The notes beneath the pieces are model-generated. The model made no database searches, was not told where the DNA came from, and worked only from the letters and a program-made list of their open reading frames with translations. This document shows positions 7,312-21,941 of a stretch of 21,941 nucleotides of DNA, piece after piece; the stretch's first letter is position 1, and every line of letters starts with the position of its first letter. Position numbers and translations under genes: made by a program. This stretch comes from a virus. The stretch is taken from IMG/VR virus record IMGVR_UViG_3300042691_009936, positions 1 through 21,941 of that record. One strand, 5' to 3'.

Positions 7312-8090
7312 TGGGTTCACCAAATGGTAACTTACAGTTATCTCGTATAAAAGCTTTAAATCCAAGACAAAAAGAGGTGTTAGCCTCCAATAAAAACCTA
7401 GTAGTCCACGGCGCTGCTGGTACTGGAAAAACTCTATTGGTTCTGTATAGAGCCCTAGTAGAGGTCGAAGCTAGACGCTTAGAAAAAGTAATTATTATGC
7501 GTAGTGCTGTACCAACAAGAAATATAGGATTCTTACCAGGATCAGCTTCAGAGAAGACTAAAGTATATGAAGCACCCTATATGGATTTAGCTTCGCAACT
7601 CTATGACAAAGAGGATGCGTACACAATGCTAAAAAGACAGAAAAAAGTAGAGTTCGTATCAACCTCATTTATAAGAGGCATAAACACAGAAAATTGTTTT
7701 CTGATCGTGGACGAGTTTCAAAACATGAACTTCCATGAGTTAGATTCCATTATTACTAGACTCGGAAAGAACTGCAAAATAGCCTTTAGTGGTGACGCAG
7801 GACAGGCCGACTTACAGAATAATGGGCTAAGACCTTTTATGAATATTCTTCAAAGAATGCCAGATCTATTTGATATAGTAGAGTTTGGAATTGAAGATAT
7901 AGTTAGAAGTGAACTTGTCAAACGCTACCTAACGGAAAAACATAAACTCAATGAAATTAATAAAACTGATAGCCTTAGCAACCCTGTTATTGACAGCTTG
8001 CACAAACTACCAGATTCCCGTACCGGCGAATCACTTATTATTCAGCCCGGTATCATTAGAAATGGAAATGGAGCCGAAACCCTTAGATAA
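7311..8090 (+). CDS. phoH: PhoH-like ATPase
   Basis: A 259-aa P-loop ATPase of the PhoH family, common in phages but of unclear function; RNA-related roles have been proposed. Walker A is GAAGTGKT (34-41). The family segment PTRNIGFLPGS (68-78) follows. Walker B is FLIVDEFQN (130-138) and a sensor-like GDAGQAD is at 161-167. ATG 7311 is chosen because it overlaps the previous stop (TAATG) and has GGAAG at 7298-7302; an in-frame ATG at 7281 lies inside the previous gene. The last 46 codons overlap the next gene by 140 nt in another frame and have no clear family match, so the true conserved domain ends near residue 213. Confidence 0.88.
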   Translation: MGSPNGNLQLSRIKALNPRQKEVLASNKNLVVHGAAGTGKTLLVLYRALVEVEARRLEKVIIMRSAVPTRNIGFLPGSASEKTKVYEAPYMDLASQLYDKEDAYTMLKRQKKVEFVSTSFIRGINTENCFLIVDEFQNMNFHELDSIITRLGKNCKIAFSGDAGQADLQNNGLRPFMNILQRMPDLFDIVEFGIEDIVRSELVKRYLTEKHKLNEINKTDSLSNPVIDSLHKLPDSRTGESLIIQPGIIRNGNGAETLR

Positions 8091-8457
8091 ATCTAGCGTA
8101 GATTGTCTAACACAAAATATCTATTTTGAAGCTAGAAACCAGCCTGTAGAAGGTCAGTTTGCGGTAGCAGAAGTAGTTATTAATAGAACTAAAGACCCCG
8201 ACTTCCCAGATAACATTTGCAAAGTTATAAAGCAGAAAACAAAAAACAACTGCCAATTTTCGTGGTATTGTGACGGGAAGAAGGACGTGATGGTGGAAGA
8301 AGAAGCTATTGCTTTAGCAACTTATATAGCTATTAGCGTATTGGAAAACCCAACTAATATTACAAAGGGCGCCAAATACTATCACGCAGACTATGTATCC
8401 CCCAATTGGGGGAAAGAAAAAACAGTTACTATAGGAGATCACGTATTTTATACGTAA
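7951..8457 (+). CDS. SleB-like cell wall hydrolase with lipoprotein signal
   Basis: A 168-aa peptidoglycan hydrolase of the SleB family (lytic transglycosylase-like). Residues 1-17 are a lipoprotein signal, MKLIKLIALATLLLTAC, with lipobox LLTA-C17, so the protein should be lipidated and face the periplasm. A short linker precedes the catalytic domain: NIYFEARNQPVEGQ with the predicted catalytic E60, AVAEVVINR, and the family's C-terminal YYHADYVSPNWG and IGDHVFY. Such enzymes usually cut peptidoglycan glycan strands. The gene lies among replication genes, not in a lysis cassette. It overlaps phoH by 140 nt, which is unusual; only a weak GGAA about 14 nt upstream serves as a ribosome site. An alternative start near 8063 would drop the signal but has no better site. 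Confidence 0.86.
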   Translation: MKLIKLIALATLLLTACTNYQIPVPANHLLFSPVSLEMEMEPKPLDKSSVDCLTQNIYFEARNQPVEGQFAVAEVVINRTKDPDFPDNICKVIKQKTKNNCQFSWYCDGKKDVMVEEEAIALATYIAISVLENPTNITKGAKYYHADYVSPNWGKEKTVTIGDHVFYT

Positions 8458-17015: not shown

Positions 17016-17969
17016 ATGTTAACAGAAACCAGAGACTACTACCGTCCTTTTACCTACCCTTGGGCTTACGACTATTACAAAGCTCAAAACAGAATGCATT
17101 GGCAGCCAGAGGAAGTTCCTCTGGCTGACGATATTAAAGACTACAATCAGAAACTAAACTCTGGAAGTAAAAAGCTAATTACTCAGATTTTTAGATTCTT
17201 TACCCAGGCTGACGTAGACGTAGCTGGTGGATATGCTCAGCATTACTTGCCCACATTTAAACCGCCTGAAATTAGAATGATGATGAGTGCTTTTGCAGGT
17301 ATGGAAGCTACTCACATCGACGCATACTCTCTTCTCATTGAAACGCTAGGACTTCCAGATGCAGAATACAAGATGTTTTCTAACTACAAATCAATGCGGG
17401 ACAAGCACGAATATTTGTCCCAGTTTAGCATGGATACTCCCGAGAACATCGCAAAATCCCTCGCAGTTTATTCTGGGTTTACTGAAGGAGTTCAGCTGTT
17501 CTCCTCTTTTGCTATTTTACTTAACTTCCCTAGACATAATCTAATGAAGAATATGGGCCAGATTATTAGCTGGTCAATTAGAGACGAAAATTTGCATGTT
17601 GAAGGCATGACCAGACTCTTCAGAACATACATCGAAGAGAATCCTCATTTATGGACAGACGAGCTTAAGGCTTCTTTATACGTTATCTGTAAAAAGATTG
17701 TAGAACTAGAAGACGCTTTCATTGACACTTGCTTCGAGGGCGCTAAACTAGAGGACCTAGAACCAGAGGAAGTAAAACAGTATATCAGGTTCATCGCAGG
17801 TAGAAGACTTAATCAGTTAGGGTTGAACAATATTTTCGGTATTGAGAAAAATCCACTACCTTGGGTAGACTCTATGATCAACGCTGTAGAGCATACTAAT
17901 TTCTTTGAAAATAGGTCTACAGCCTATTCTAAATCAGCAACAACTGGAAACTGGGCGGATATTTTATGA
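17016..17969 (+). CDS. nrdB: Class I ribonucleotide reductase, small subunit
   Basis: A 317-aa di-iron subunit that makes the tyrosyl radical used by NrdA. Ligands follow the class Ia pattern: an Asp near 66-68, E97-x2-H100 with radical Tyr Y104 at the normal +7 spacing, E157, E191 and H194. Residue spacing indicates a Tyr-radical enzyme rather than the Mn/Fe type without Tyr. GAGG at 17007-17010 is the ribosome site, directly after the nrdA stop. The reading frame contains a perfect 12-bp-arm inverted repeat at 17103-17127 (codons 30-38). The stop overlaps the methyltransferase ATG (ATGA). Confidence 0.95.
   Translation: MLTETRDYYRPFTYPWAYDYYKAQNRMHWQPEEVPLADDIKDYNQKLNSGSKKLITQIFRFFTQADVDVAGGYAQHYLPTFKPPEIRMMMSAFAGMEATHIDAYSLLIETLGLPDAEYKMFSNYKSMRDKHEYLSQFSMDTPENIAKSLAVYSGFTEGVQLFSSFAILLNFPRHNLMKNMGQIISWSIRDENLHVEGMTRLFRTYIEENPHLWTDELKASLYVICKKIVELEDAFIDTCFEGAKLEDLEPEEVKQYIRFIAGRRLNQLGLNNIFGIEKNPLPWVDSMINAVEHTNFFENRSTAYSKSATTGNWADIL
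17103..17127. repeat. Perfect inverted repeat inside nrdB
   Basis: CAGCCAGAGGAA and TTCCTCTGGCTG are exact reverse complements around one central G (17115). As RNA it would fold into an 11-bp stem with a 3-nt loop. It lies in coding sequence and has no T-run after it, so it is not an ordinary terminator. By chance such a site is expected roughly 0.001 times in a window of this size with even base composition. Confidence 0.8.
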
Positions 17970-18664
17970 ACTTTGATTGGGGTAGTACGCCTCAAGAGTA
18001 TATCGATTTATTTACAAAGGAAAACTTTGTAGAGCATACTTACGAGAAACACTGTAAAGTAGTTGCTGGAGACATTGTACTAGATATTGGTGCAAACTGC
18101 GGGTCATTTACTTTTTCTATTTTAGATAGAGCTCCAAAGCATGTTTATTGTATAGAGCCCTCAAATAGCTTAGTTAATTGTCTTGCTAGAAACTTATCTA
18201 AGGCTCCAGTGACTATTATAAATAAAGCAATTTCATATAGAATTGAAGATGCTAAGATTATAGGTAGTGGAGCGTTTATTTATGAGCATTATGGGGATAC
18301 TTACTCTACCACAACTTTTAGCAACCTCATTAAAGAACATAACGTTACTAGAATTGACTTTTTAAAATTTGATTGTGAGGGTGGGGAGTACTCTATATTC
18401 ACGAGAGAAAATTATGAGTTTATTCGTAACAACGTTAAACACTATGCTGGTGAATGGCACATTACAGACCATGAAAATGCTGTGGAAAAGTTCATTGAAT
18501 TTAGAGACTTATACCTAAAAGATTATAAAGAGTTACATGTTTATGAGAGATACGACGGAAAAGATATTACCGCTGAAATCTTTGATAATGACTACCTATA
18601 TGCTTTTAAAGACTGGTGGAAGCATACTTACTTTGGACAGTTTCTAATATATGTAACCTACTAA
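17966..18664 (+). CDS. FkbM-family SAM-dependent methyltransferase
   Basis: A 232-aa methyltransferase. The SAM-binding motif I is VLDIGANCGSFT (38-49), followed by VYCIEPSN (60-67) with the ribose-binding acidic residue E64. IDFLKFDCEGGEYSIF (130-145) is typical of the FkbM family, which usually O-methylates sugars or small molecules. The substrate here is unknown; phage or host glycans are possible. It shares an ATGA overlap with nrdB, so it is translated from the ribonucleotide reductase transcript. Codons are more A/T-rich than in nrdB, which suggests later acquisition. It is the last gene before the two-way terminator. Confidence 0.83.
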   Translation: MNFDWGSTPQEYIDLFTKENFVEHTYEKHCKVVAGDIVLDIGANCGSFTFSILDRAPKHVYCIEPSNSLVNCLARNLSKAPVTIINKAISYRIEDAKIIGSGAFIYEHYGDTYSTTTFSNLIKEHNVTRIDFLKFDCEGGEYSIFTRENYEFIRNNVKHYAGEWHITDHENAVEKFIEFRDLYLKDYKELHVYERYDGKDITAEIFDNDYLYAFKDWWKHTYFGQFLIYVTY

Positions 18665-18666
18665 CG

Positions 18667-18699
18667 AAAAGCCCCGGAACGCGAGTTCCGGGGCTTTTT
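18667..18699. terminator. Bidirectional terminator between convergent blocks
   Basis: GCCCCGGAAC (18671-18680) and GTTCCGGGGC (18685-18694) pair perfectly over 10 bp around a GCGA (GNRA-type) loop. AAAA precedes and TTTTT follows, so it works in both directions. It lies between the methyltransferase stop (18664) and the hydroxylase stop (18701) and separates + strand early genes from - strand tail genes. Confidence 0.95.
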
Positions 18700-18700
18700 G

Positions 18701-19249
18701 TTACTTCCAGCGAGGGCCTTCCATCCAACCAACTAGGGAGTTTCTTACTCCTGCGGTGACTGGGGTTACCCGGTGCGTTAGATAGCTAGGGAATATGAGG
18801 ATTGACCCCTGTTCCCTGAATCTAGTAGGCTGTTCGATTTCTTTGAACTCAAAGTTACCGCCTTCATAGCTGTTAGGATCGCTCAACTGTAGAACATAAG
18901 ATAGTTTCCTATCGTATGGACCAGTGCCTTCCCAATTTACATCGTAGTGCCAGTCATAGAAGTTACCTACTGTGTACTCTCCAAATTGAAGAGGGGGCAT
19001 ATAGTCAATATCTACCCCAAAGGCGTCTCTATTAGCTAACCTTAAGTAGTATAATGACATAGCCATTAGTTTAGGGTTCTCTGTCCAGCCTACTTTAGTT
19101 TTTCGTATTGAAGAGGCTGCAGTTACATCTGCACCACTAAATACACTACCATCAGCTAGTCTGCATGAGTCGTAGCATAGCTTTTTAATCTCTTCACACT
19201 CTTGGGGCGAAACCATTCCTGTGTAAAGCCTCCAGTTTTGTCTTACCAT
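18701..19249 (-). CDS. 2-oxoglutarate/Fe(II) oxygenase, prolyl hydroxylase-like
   Basis: A 182-aa dioxygenase of the P4H/PKHD type. Fe ligands are H101-x-D103 (WHYDVNW) and H159 (YLTHRVTPV); R169 (GVRNSLVGW) binds 2-oxoglutarate. EGGNFEF (129-135) and GSILIFPS (148-155) are the standard core strands. Such enzymes hydroxylate Pro or other residues, or small molecules. The gene is last in a - strand block whose first visible gene is a collagen-like tail fibre, a possible substrate (inference). ATG 19249 has AAGGAG 7 nt or so upstream. It is 9 nt from the preceding gene. PKHD-like oxygenases are frequent in marine and cyanophage genomes. Confidence 0.88.
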   Translation of the reverse strand: MVRQNWRLYTGMVSPQECEEIKKLCYDSCRLADGSVFSGADVTAASSIRKTKVGWTENPKLMAMSLYYLRLANRDAFGVDIDYMPPLQFGEYTVGNFYDWHYDVNWEGTGPYDRKLSYVLQLSDPNSYEGGNFEFKEIEQPTRFREQGSILIFPSYLTHRVTPVTAGVRNSLVGWMEGPRWK

Positions 19250-19258
19250 TTAGTCTCC

Positions 19259-19657
19259 TTAAGGATGAGGTCTCCAATTGACGCCATCGTTGATTTTGTT
19301 AAACATAAACATTCTACCATCATAATTCTGTAGTTTACAAGGTAGATTAGTACCTGTGTCCCCTACAATCCAACGTTGGCCAGTATCATCTTCTACCATT
19401 GCTACCATATGGTCTATTTGCGGGCCGCCTTCCATACTAGTAAGAACTCGCCATATCTTTTGAACTCCTAAAGTAAAGAATATCTCAGCCGTTGTGCTAG
19501 CTAATCCATCACAGTCATCCATAATTTTATAGTTATCTGGGTCTGCTAGAAATGGCTTTGCTGATGATTTCCACGAGTCGTGCTTAGGGTCATCATAAAC
19601 ATACCAGAATCTGCTGTGAATTTTCAAGTTCCATTTTCTAATTTCATCTGCGGTCAC
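19259..19657 (-). CDS. Transglutaminase-like cysteine peptidase
   Basis: A 132-aa protein with the layout of bacterial transglutaminase-like peptidases (peptidase C93 type). DDCDGLA carries the predicted nucleophile C49, QIDHMVAMVED the His H83, and WIVGDTG the Asp D100. It is short and has no visible secretion signal. GTG 19657 is the start and overlaps the stop of the lipoprotein gene (GTGA). C93-type proteins cleave or cross-link proteins in bacteria; the phage target is unknown. One possibility is processing of a tail protein or of the coupled lipoprotein. An alternative reading is a degenerate NlpC/P60-like hydrolase, but the GDT and DCD pattern favours the transglutaminase fold. Confidence 0.62.
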   Translation of the reverse strand: MTADEIRKWNLKIHSRFWYVYDDPKHDSWKSSAKPFLADPDNYKIMDDCDGLASTTAEIFFTLGVQKIWRVLTSMEGGPQIDHMVAMVEDDTGQRWIVGDTGTNLPCKLQNYDGRMFMFNKINDGVNWRPHP

Positions 19658-19830
19658 TTAGGGCACCAACTGTACGGGGTATCTTTGCAGGCAGACGCAC
19701 ACCATGGGGTGGAAGGATCATTACTGCAACTCTCCATATCTTGGGAGTATACCTCAGCCGGGTTACTGGTAGGCGGCTGCACAGTAGGAGTACAGCTCGC
19801 CAAAAGTAATGATATTAATAATATTTTCAT
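19654..19830 (-). CDS. Small Cys-rich lipoprotein (58 aa)
   Basis: A short gene that starts ATG 19830 and ends TGA 19654. Residues 1-13, MKILLISLLLASC, form a lipoprotein signal with lipobox LLAS-C13. The mature part is Pro/Thr/Ser-rich at first (TPTVQPPTSNP) and then holds four Cys (C35, C44, C48, C56), likely in disulfides in the periplasm. It is joined to its neighbours by ATGA (with 19827-20318) and GTGA (with 19259-19657) overlaps, so it is surely translated with them. Candidates are a superinfection-exclusion lipoprotein like T5 Llp, which lies near the receptor-binding gene in T5, or an outer-membrane spanin; no inner-membrane spanin partner is visible. The frame and signal are seen; the role is inferred. 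Confidence 0.78.
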   Translation of the reverse strand: MKILLISLLLASCTPTVQPPTSNPAEVYSQDMESCSNDPSTPWCASACKDTPYSWCPK

Positions 19831-20318
19831 GGTGGGTCCTTTATCATCTTTATTCTATCTAATGGAACCCCTGATTTTCTTTTAGCCTTTGGGTCCCAAC
19901 GAACATCTCCTGGTAGTAATTCTTCTATAGCTAAGTAATCTTCCATTAGTTTAAGTACTTTAGAATCTGTTACTATGTCTCTTTCTATATCTCTTTGAAT
20001 TTGTGCCTTTAAACCTCTGCCTAGCGTAGGAAAAGGAGCTGTAAGCACATGAGTTAGGAAAGTAAACTGAGCTATGCCTCTTCTAGGCTCTGTGTACCCT
20101 TCTACCATCTTGAAACCTTGCCAAGAAAGTTGAGTGTTCCAATCTGGGTGAAGTAAAAGCTGCTGCCTAATAACATCCTCGTCGTCAGCGTATCTTTTAC
20201 TATTAGGGTCTAGGCCATTTAGCTTAGACTGCTCCGAAGCTAGCCAATCAGACATAGGGCAGGGGCCCGTAAGGTTTGTTGCCGTTCTCCAGGCTTGAAG
20301 TTTATCTTGAATAAACAT
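19827..20318 (-). CDS. Uncharacterised 163-aa protein of the tail-end operon
   Basis: No family is recognised. The protein is soluble and charged, with no signal or membrane segment. It starts MFIQDKLQAWRTATNLTG, has Trp-rich stretches (HPDWNTQLSWQGF near 57-69) and a long helical Arg/Asp-rich centre (LKAQIQRDIERDIV near 103-116), and ends basic then PP. Ribosome site AAGGAG (20325-20330) overlaps the stop of the upstream tail gene. Its stop overlaps the lipoprotein ATG. It may be a tail-chaperone-like or accessory protein for the cassette, but nothing in the sequence shows that. Confidence 0.7.
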   Translation of the reverse strand: MFIQDKLQAWRTATNLTGPCPMSDWLASEQSKLNGLDPNSKRYADDEDVIRQQLLLHPDWNTQLSWQGFKMVEGYTEPRRGIAQFTFLTHVLTAPFPTLGRGLKAQIQRDIERDIVTDSKVLKLMEDYLAIEELLPGDVRWDPKAKRKSGVPLDRIKMIKDPP

Positions 20319-20327
20319 ATTATCTCC

Positions 20328-21008
20328 TTAAAAATTAGTGATGTCAACGACCAGCCCCTGGGCAAAGTCTACTGGGAATGTAAATGGGGGGTCATAAGTA
20401 TAGCTGGTAATATCGGATGTTTGAATTGCTCCATTTGAGAAAACTATTACATGTTGCGAAGTATTTTGTACCCCGGAATAATAAGTCCATTCTCTCTTTA
20501 CGGCTTTTTCTATAGTTGTTCCATCTTGTGAGAACCCTGGGGCTAGTATAACTGTGGCGTATTTTCTGCCAGAAGTATACGTGTAAGTAGTAGTGCCACT
20601 ATTATCTATTAAAGCTACGATTCTTAAGGGCTTATTTCCGCTATGATATACTAACTCGGCAGATGCATTAAATATTTGTAGTCCATAATTATGTGGGCTA
20701 GTTGTAACAACGTCGAACACATATAGTTCTACGGAGGCATTGTTAAACCCAGAAACTACCCTAAAGGTCCAAGTAGACCCGCTTTTAGTTATTGCGGTTA
20801 CTGTAACATATCTATTTGCACAGTATACAGCAAGAATAGGGTTTACGGCATTAGTAATAGTATAATCATAATAATAATAACTATAGGAGCCGTCACTGTA
20901 AAGACTTGAGGTAGTACCACTTCCTGCGTTACTTAGCTGAAAGTTTTTATAAGTTTCATCTACTTGATATGTTGAGGAATCATTTAGTACTTGGAATCCT
21001 GTAGGCAT
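20328..21008 (-). CDS. Tail-associated protein with repeated GLQ-type module
   Basis: A 226-aa, Ser/Thr/Tyr-rich, beta-rich protein without signal or membrane segment. It begins MPTGFQVLNDSSTYQVDE, similar to its upstream neighbour, and repeats the same module internally (YGLQIFNASAELVYHSG, 108-124). A Tyr run YYYYDY (44-49) is coded by a short ATA triplet repeat. Such proteins lie at the end of tail tip and fibre operons and probably cap or decorate the tip or bind receptors. GGAG about 8 nt upstream is the ribosome site; it is next to 21009 without a gap. It resembles the DUF6453-like tail proteins from memory, not by search. Confidence 0.65.
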   Translation of the reverse strand: MPTGFQVLNDSSTYQVDETYKNFQLSNAGSGTTSSLYSDGSYSYYYYDYTITNAVNPILAVYCANRYVTVTAITKSGSTWTFRVVSGFNNASVELYVFDVVTTSPHNYGLQIFNASAELVYHSGNKPLRIVALIDNSGTTTYTYTSGRKYATVILAPGFSQDGTTIEKAVKREWTYYSGVQNTSQHVIVFSNGAIQTSDITSYTYDPPFTFPVDFAQGLVVDITNF

Positions 21009-21308
21009 TTAATAAACTCCATAAATTAATCTTAGGGTACCTTCGCCAAAACTTGCTACATCAACTGACCAATCTATATTACCAGCGACAACAGCTACAT
21101 ATATAGAAGCCCAATAAGGAGTAACAATACTGTTAGGATTATAAACAGTAACAAATACCTGAGCTCCAGATTCTATAGTTGGTAAAACAATTGAACCAGA
21201 ATAGGGGTAACCCCCTATGTCTGTCCAACCTAGAACGCGTCCAAGCCTAGTGCTTGTATCTAATATGAGGTTGCCGGATGCATCCCATATTTGTAATCCT
21301 TGCGGCAT
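21009..21308 (-). CDS. Small tail-associated protein
   Basis: A 99-aa beta-rich protein starting MPQGLQIWDASGNLILDTS. The GLQIWDASG motif recurs in the next gene and is common at the end of siphophage tail-tip operons. It has no signal or membrane segment and ends in an aromatic strand (LRLIYGVY). It starts 1 nt after the fibre stop and ends next to the following ATG, so it is co-translated with both. It probably binds the tail tip or fibre; no enzymatic motif is seen. Confidence 0.68.
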   Translation of the reverse strand: MPQGLQIWDASGNLILDTSTRLGRVLGWTDIGGYPYSGSIVLPTIESGAQVFVTVYNPNSIVTPYWASIYVAVVAGNIDWSVDVASFGEGTLRLIYGVY

Positions 21309-21309
21309 A

Positions 21310-21941
21310 TTACCAGATTCCCATTCTTACTCTTAATACGTTACTAGAATCGTACACTCTTATCACGTTATCCTCGATTTCAGTTCTTGCACCTGATGAT
21401 GCTGTTCTTAGTAGACCAATTGTAGCCGTTAGGGCTGATAGTGAACTAACCTTCACGCTATCGGCATCAATCCAGTCCACTAGTTTTGTTAGTGTTAGAT
21501 CATTGCCTGTAGTATCATCGGCCGACTGCCACTGCCATACTTCTCCGTTTGTAACATTCCAGTAAACGTCTCCTTGTTTAACTAAGTTGCTACCTCTATA
21601 TGTTCTTATATAGTCGGACCTTGATGATGCCCCGGATGCGTTGTTATACGCACCAGTTACATCGAAGGCTACAGCGTTACCAGCTGAACCGGCTGGGCCG
21701 GCTGGGCCTGTAGCACCTGTAGCGCCTGTACCTCCTGGGCTGCCCACGGGACCGCCTACACCTTGAGGACCATTAGCACCTGGAGTACCCGCAGCACCGG
21801 GTGAGCCCGCTGGACCGCCTACGCCTTGAGGACCGTTAGCACCAGTAGCCCCTGGGGCACCAGTTGGACCAGCTGGACCGCCTACGCCTTGAGGACCGTT
21901 AGCACCAGTAGCCCCTGGGGCACCAGTTGGACCAGCTGGAC
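21310..21941 (-). CDS. Collagen-like tail fibre / tip protein, C-terminal part (partial)
   Basis: The frame is open to the right edge, so only the last 210 or so residues are visible. The first part is Gly-X-Y repeats (GPAGPTGAPGATGANGPQGV and variants) down to about 21680, forming a collagen-like triple helix. The C-terminal domain holds TIGLLRTASSG and IRVYDSSNVLRVRMGIW, the ending typical of siphophage tip attachment proteins (lambda J-type, DUF1983-like). It should be a trimeric host-contact fibre. A GTG at 21747 lies mid-repeat and is not the start. Pro occurs in both X and Y positions. Confidence 0.85.
   Translation of the reverse strand, partial: PAGPTGAPGATGANGPQGVGGPAGPTGAPGATGANGPQGVGGPAGSPGAAGTPGANGPQGVGGPVGSPGGTGATGATGPAGPAGSAGNAVAFDVTGAYNNASGASSRSDYIRTYRGSNLVKQGDVYWNVTNGEVWQWQSADDTTGNDLTLTKLVDWIDADSVKVSSLSALTATIGLLRTASSGARTEIEDNVIRVYDSSNVLRVRMGIW
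21754..21941 (-). repeat. Tandem 63-bp repeats in the collagen-like region
   Basis: Three head-to-tail 63-bp units (21 codons, seven Gly-X-Y triplets): 21754-21816, 21817-21879 and 21880-21941 (cut by the edge). The last two are identical over all visible bases; the first differs at many positions. Each contains GCCTACRCCTTGAGGACC. Further units probably continue off the window. Confidence 0.9.

Follow-up and report, generated by a model that had tools for sequence, protein, structure and literature searches.

A 58-aa ORF near the end of the tail operon of a siphovirus-like phage is, judging from its sequence and that of its relatives, a real gene, and its predicted lipoprotein product represents a new family of known architecture, the Cys-rich head of which is absent from Pfam, PHROGs and NCBIfam. 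The gene overlaps and precedes that of a LapG-like cysteine protease, and this pairing recurs in all five phage lineages in which the lipoprotein was found. As the leading, still tentative explanation, we propose that the two genes form an accessory module, active late and directed at the envelope; in it the lipoprotein would dock or regulate the protease, and the module's role would probably lie in cell exit. The window, i.e. the whole stretch of 21,941 nt analysed here, is a fragment of the phage genome; its relevant features are as follows.

18667–18699 (hairpin 18671–18694), no strand: perfect stem of 10 bp, flanked by A/T, where two operons converge
18701–19249, – strand: 2OG-Fe(II) oxygenase, last gene of the operon
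19259–19657, – strand: BTLCP (peptidase C93, LapG-like) cysteine protease, 132 aa, without signal peptide; from motif, profile and fold
19511–19513, 19409–19411 and 19358–19360, – strand: predicted protease triad C49, H83 and D100 (DC49DG...DH83M...GD100T)
19654–19830, – strand: small lipoprotein gene, 58 aa; from the sequence read and homologues in L118, L119/L120, L121 and L125
19657–19740, – strand: conserved four-Cys, two-Trp head (residues 31–58); from the alignment of homologues
19741–19791, – strand: Pro-rich linker (residues 14–30), of varying length among homologues
19792–19830, – strand: predicted signal peptide (residues 1–12) and lipidated Cys13; from sequence
19827–20318, – strand: 163-aa protein, its gene sharing an ATGA overlap with the lipoprotein start; present in relatives without the pair
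19837–19842, – strand: AAAGGA, resembling a Shine-Dalgarno site, 6 nt ahead of the lipoprotein ATG
20328–21939, – strand: tail-fibre genes of the same late operon, lying upstream: proteins of 226 and 99 aa and the C-terminus of a collagen-like fibre

The lipoprotein gene and its surroundings

On re-reading, the coordinates, frame and sequence given for the ORF in an earlier note on this DNA proved exact, translation of 19654–19830 (– strand) yielding MKILLISLLLASCTPTVQPPTSNPAEVYSQDMESCSNDPSTPWCASACKDTPYSWCPK. The lipobox it had described (L10-A11-S12-C13, closing the N-terminus MK-ILLISLLLAS-C), the Pro-rich linker (Pro at positions 15, 19, 20 and 24) and four further Cys (35, 44, 48 and 56) are all present in the translation, and the ATGA and GTGA overlaps were located at 19827–19830, where the lipoprotein gene starts within the 163-aa gene, and at 19654–19657, where it ends within the protease gene. 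Calling the gene hidden, as too short for usual length cut-offs, was an overstatement: 58 aa exceeds the length floor of Prodigal, which stands at about 90 nt. An antisense ORF of 101 aa (19580–19885, + strand) covers the lipoprotein gene and was taken as chance.

A basic N-terminus, a hydrophobic stretch and the [LVI][ASTVI][GAS]C box are kept in all homologues, and this lipobox supports the earlier claim of a lipoprotein; the product is probably exported, lipidated and anchored to a membrane. Residue +2 is Thr and not Asp; by the sorting rule of E. coli, a residue other than Asp at this position fits the outer membrane. The four distal Cys may pair into two disulphides. In a strict lipobox scan, the ORF was the sole 40–80-aa match in the window, and 30 dinucleotide shuffles of the window returned 0.07 lipobox ORFs of this length per window, with 0 carrying a Shine-Dalgarno-like site. 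Codon usage of the ORF is atypical, falling at the 1.8th percentile relative to same-length gene segments of the same phage, so that composition alone would not call it a gene; the decisive evidence is instead the Cys pattern and gene order kept in diverged phages.

Related DNA includes a relative of 100,125 bp (G004) and a 39.8-kb contig (G001) that is 99.99% identical to the window. The relative carries a full head-tail operon on the – strand, in the order terminase- and portal-like genes, tape measure, lambda J-like tip, collagen-like fibre, 99-, 226- and 163-aa proteins and 2OG oxygenase (most of these names being our reading of the sequences). Between AAGGA repeats, G004 and its kin lack the two-gene stretch as a whole, the 163-aa gene being followed immediately by the 2OG gene (L007 6179/6180); the rest of these contigs yielded neither gene. 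Lipoprotein and protease are present or absent as one unit and are accessory in this phage; since the 100-kb relative lacks the pair, lysis in this group of phages does not depend on it. Downstream of the operon, the 10-bp stem, which a simple scan missed, likely serves as a bidirectional terminator between the converging operons.

Several further loci in these genomes deserve mention. Window and G004 encode different FkbM-like methyltransferases (17966–18664 and 64769–65392, respectively), apparently in the same slot after nrdB. A SleB-type cell-wall hydrolase gene (PF07486, E 7e-26; window 7951–8457, + strand; L094 14770–15255) possesses a lipobox (LLTAC / LLAAC), with the signal encoded inside the 3′ end of a PhoH-like gene in another frame. 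The 100-kb relative retains this lipobox and this overlap although the sequences differ, and a lipidated wall hydrolase would be unusual in a phage. Another lipoprotein of 56 aa in G004 (L092 6803–6973) is strongly Pro-rich and lacks the distal Cys: MKLITATIALALMATACSNSEPKPDVIPPPADAGPGSEPQPLPVTPPVDEPTRVAE.

A lipoprotein family with a constant protease partner

Single-protein scans of viral and bacterial contigs returned the 99.99% identical copy as their sole match, and tblastn against 50,697 phage records gave noise only and no lipoprotein homologue; its best match (H1, Marine virus AG-345-P14) was antisense to other ORFs, lacked the motif and was rejected. Scanning viral contigs with a degenerate DNA pattern for the triad motif led to a phage (L108/L121) with a clear homologue, and subsequent protease-only profile scans added three more lineages. 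Besides the near-identical copy of the window, the protease-only scan found five further contigs from four lineages, and in all five an ORF for a lipoprotein sharing the Cys motif lies directly upstream of the protease gene and overlaps it (by 1 nt in L118, 1 in L119, 16 in L121 and 8 in L125), a pairing that may be over-represented, as the relatives’ profile was seeded from two members that both carry the lipoprotein. Together with the window this makes five lineages, all from metagenomes.

The homologues (L118, L119, which equals L120, L121 and L125) measure 64–76 aa and are 33–38% identical to the window lipoprotein (alignment A4). Invariant positions are C13, P19, D31, C35, P39, W43, C44, C48, W55 and C56, within the family motif C13 ... 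D31-x3-C35-x3-P39-x3-W43-C44-x3-C48-x6-W55-C56, while signal and linker vary. Thus, the search for homologues proposed in the earlier note was successful, and conservation of the Cys pattern in relatives, on which that note had staked its reading, extends to all four distal Cys as well as the lipid-bearing one. The Cys-Trp pattern had 0 further occurrences in 1.76 Mb of six-frame translated DNA. Matches in Pfam and PHROGs either covered signal and linker only or were insignificant, the Cys head had no match in NCBIfam, PDB sequence searches with lipoprotein and protease retrieved nothing convincing, and plasmid, NCBIfam, PADLOC, Rfam and tRNA searches retrieved nothing.

For the 132-aa neighbour, motif, profile and modelled fold agree on a LapG-like or BTLCP-like enzyme, and this predicted assignment is firm. 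The motif DDCDGLAST...DHM...IVGDT is invariant in the five lineages, its Cys-His-Asp order is that of BTLCPs, and the triad spacing in the window protease (C–H 34, H–D 17) compares with 34 and 15 in HvyA (C192-H226-D241; PMC4241560). A single-sequence fold was unusable (pLDDT 33.8), but eight aligned sequences raised the AlphaFold model to a pLDDT of 90.1 and a pTM of 0.86. All top PDB matches of this model are LapG (Foldseek E 1.7e-4, prob 1.00), with Legionella LapG the best structural match (VIA Z 12.2, rmsd 3.4, 121 residues), and proteins named as phage transglutaminase-like proteinases are among its top viral structure matches. The Pfam cut-off was reached neither by the window protease, which has no match, nor by L119, which scores 15.3 bits vs. 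a cut-off of 27, and a five-sequence protease profile (A3) also finds BTLCPs above the PF06035 cut-off (L111, L115). As the link to Pfam runs only via the latter two, we name the enzyme LapG-like or BTLCP-like and not a Pfam C93 member.

The protease begins MTADEIRKWN and lacks the periplasmic signal of typical bacterial members. Its start has at best a weak ribosome site of its own (GGTG), and its translation therefore probably depends on that of the upstream lipoprotein. The distant BTLCP-like proteins L109–L116 occur without the lipoprotein. Two of them that pass PF06035 (L111 1211–1705, – strand; L115 52–546, + strand) combine protease and lipobox-like N-terminus (FWGC and WGWGC) in one polypeptide, the single-chain equivalent of the two-gene layout.

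As to genomic position, fibre or tail-tip genes precede the lipoprotein in all five lineages, bearing out the earlier observation of nearby fibre genes. ORFs between tip gene and lipoprotein in L121 (3060–3374 and 3406–3756) and L125 (3559–3981) encode a tail-fibre-assembly-like protein and 116/140-aa proteins.

A proposed envelope module and its alternatives

The constant BTLCP partner in five lineages, fused to an endolysin in two of them, points to a module of the envelope and of cell exit. In L121 and L125, the protease domain forms the N-terminus of a 289–295-aa protein with an M15-type endolysin as its C-terminus (phrog_465, E 1e-41), and the fusion gene is followed by two overlapping genes, one i-spanin-like and the other for an o-spanin-like lipoprotein (both recognised by architecture, with weak profile support). 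The lipoprotein of these two lineages belongs to a lysis cassette. According to the proposed mechanism, lipoprotein and protease would both be made late from the tail operon, coupled in translation, and would work together. Lacking a signal peptide, the protease would meet the lipoprotein only once the inner membrane is breached at lysis, unless it arrives with the virion. The lipoprotein might then dock, position or license the protease on an envelope target, and the two might ease the release of progeny from the cell or from its adhesive surface. LapG is controlled by a membrane partner, LapD, with a conserved Trp highlighted in the complex (PMC4359373); by analogy, the two invariant Trp of the lipoprotein suggest a possible LapD-like contact with the protease. 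It is also possible, and put forward here with reserve, that Cys-rich lipoprotein and LapG-like cysteine protease constitute a new two-component phage system acting jointly on the envelope of Gram-negative hosts as infection ends (by releasing surface adhesins, or by cutting envelope-anchored proteins or a wall link). Such a system would be distinct from holin, endolysin and spanin and would sometimes form part of the endolysin itself.

Counting against the module are the absence of the pair from the 100-kb relative, the codon usage of the lipoprotein gene, the lipoprotein-free L109–L116, and the location of the protease away from lysis genes in the window, L118 and L119. Besides, in a survey of river single-virus genomes, BTLCP proteases headed the auxiliary genes by frequency (PMC11283719), and as such common cargo the enzyme could serve host adaptation. 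If the module is true, proteolysis can join holin, endolysin and spanin as a step in the exit from Gram-negative cells. A lipoprotein accompanying one BTLCP subfamily, together with the endolysin fusion in two lineages, provides a handle on the role of BTLCPs in phages, where this protease likely acts at the envelope with a dedicated partner.

The earlier note had likened the product to Llp, the receptor blocker of phage T5. Read as a superinfection-exclusion lipoprotein in the manner of Llp, Cor or Rtp45, it would bind the phage’s own receptor from the periplasm and shift its outer loops, such that progeny and later phages fail to adsorb, and the protease would be a separate surface-editing gene. 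We consider this rather unlikely, even if Llp and Rtp45 are disulphide-bearing periplasmic lipoproteins of the same size and architecture, their genes adjoin tail-tip or receptor-binding genes just as fibre or tip genes lie close by in all lineages here, and accessory status suits genes of this kind. What held of the comparison is a small lipoprotein near fibre genes; a relation to Cor or Rtp45 did not hold beyond the signal peptide, and the Cys layout of T5 Llp differs. Similarity to phrog_1119 (Cor) is confined to residues 1–26, mature Rtp45 scores 0.4 bits with the lipoprotein family profile, and this profile comparison thus revealed no mature-domain similarity to either protein. Moreover, a blocker matched to a receptor would not be expected to keep its Cys head across phages whose fibres differ, as this family does; the constant partner is a protease, and the gene sits inside the tail operon, whereas llp is early. 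Failing sequence membership of Cor or Rtp45 does not bar the lipoprotein from working like Llp or Rtp45, which by analogy would be the best functional precedents for it as a superinfection excluder. Still, a two-part envelope tool late in infection is more likely than a T5-style receptor blocker.

Less probable again is an inhibitor or immunity lipoprotein that keeps the LapG-like protease inactive in the periplasm up to the time of lysis, or that blocks the proteases of superinfecting phages. T4 Spackle, which blocks the gp5 lysozyme, offers a parallel, and the tight translational coupling, the constant pairing and a Cys-rich head predicted to be periplasmic would all suit such a role, as would the regulation of LapG by the membrane protein LapD via a conserved Trp (PMC4359373), given the two invariant Trp of the family. 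However, as the protease lacks a signal peptide, there would be nothing for an inhibitor to restrain in the periplasm ahead of lysis, except where the enzyme is carried in the virion.

That the lipoprotein is the outer-membrane spanin (o-spanin, Rz1-like) of the phage is very unlikely. It is small and has a Pro-rich linker, Cys are frequent in o-spanins (PMC6139136), and there are weak matches to Rz-like spanins (best phrog_456, 4.5e-5; PF23793 LysC, 2.2e-5, for L118), yet these are limited to signal and linker. We rejected this identity on the grounds that a distinct o-spanin gene, overlapping that of the i-spanin, is present in both L121 and L125. Likewise, G004 has its own i-/o-spanin pair (24305–24691 and from 24627) without the lipoprotein gene, and no i-spanin adjoins the lipoprotein in the window, L118 or L119.

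A single lipidated protease made by frameshifting, with the ORF as export signal of the BTLCP enzyme, would accord with the overlapping gene ends, the one-chain L111 and L115 and a LapG-like model in BFVD annotated ‘Lipoprotein’, but is highly improbable: overlaps of 4, 1, 1, 16 and 8 nt leave no constant frame relation among the five lineages, for which reason this fusion was rejected, no slippery site was seen, and the modelled protease needs no residues upstream of its own start codon to complete its fold (pLDDT 96–97 over residues 1–20). A chance ORF without product, as the low codon-usage percentile might imply, is in effect refuted by the Cys motif and synteny kept in four diverged lineages, and further opposed by the AAAGGA site and by a protease start that probably depends on upstream translation.

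Comparison with known systems

With LapG and other BTLCPs (C93, PF06035), the window protease shares triad spacing, DCD motif and fold; it differs in lacking a signal peptide, in being shorter, in its pairing with a lipoprotein and, in two lineages, in the fusion to an M15 endolysin. Transglutaminase-like phage enzymes in lysis exist in the pseudomurein endoisopeptidases PeiW and PeiP (PMC4592898), but these target an archaeal wall and their fold similarity to the window protease is weak (Foldseek E 0.4).

The lipoprotein resembles Rz1/LysC o-spanins (PF23793, phrog_456) in signal peptide, Pro-rich linker and, in two lineages, its location in a lysis region, whereas its four-Cys, two-Trp head lies outside the spanin profiles and the same phages have a separate o-spanin. 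Like members of the Rtp45/Cor family (phrog_4281, phrog_1119), it is a small lipoprotein with a Cys pair, encoded near a tail-tip gene; Rtp45, a periplasmic lipoprotein of about 6 kDa, has a Cys30–Cys38 disulphide (PMC12685063). Similarity to this family is limited to the signal peptide, the Cys spacing differs, and its members have no BTLCP neighbour. T5 Llp is a periplasmic lipoprotein with a Cys11–Cys58 disulphide, expressed early from its own promoter on the strand opposite to oad (PMC9586334). Llp is, and the window protein would be, a phage lipoprotein of about 6–7 kDa bearing disulphides and encoded beside a receptor-binding or fibre gene, but they have no visible sequence similarity: Llp has one disulphide, another Cys layout, no protease partner and an early promoter of its own, whereas the gene described here lies inside the tail operon.
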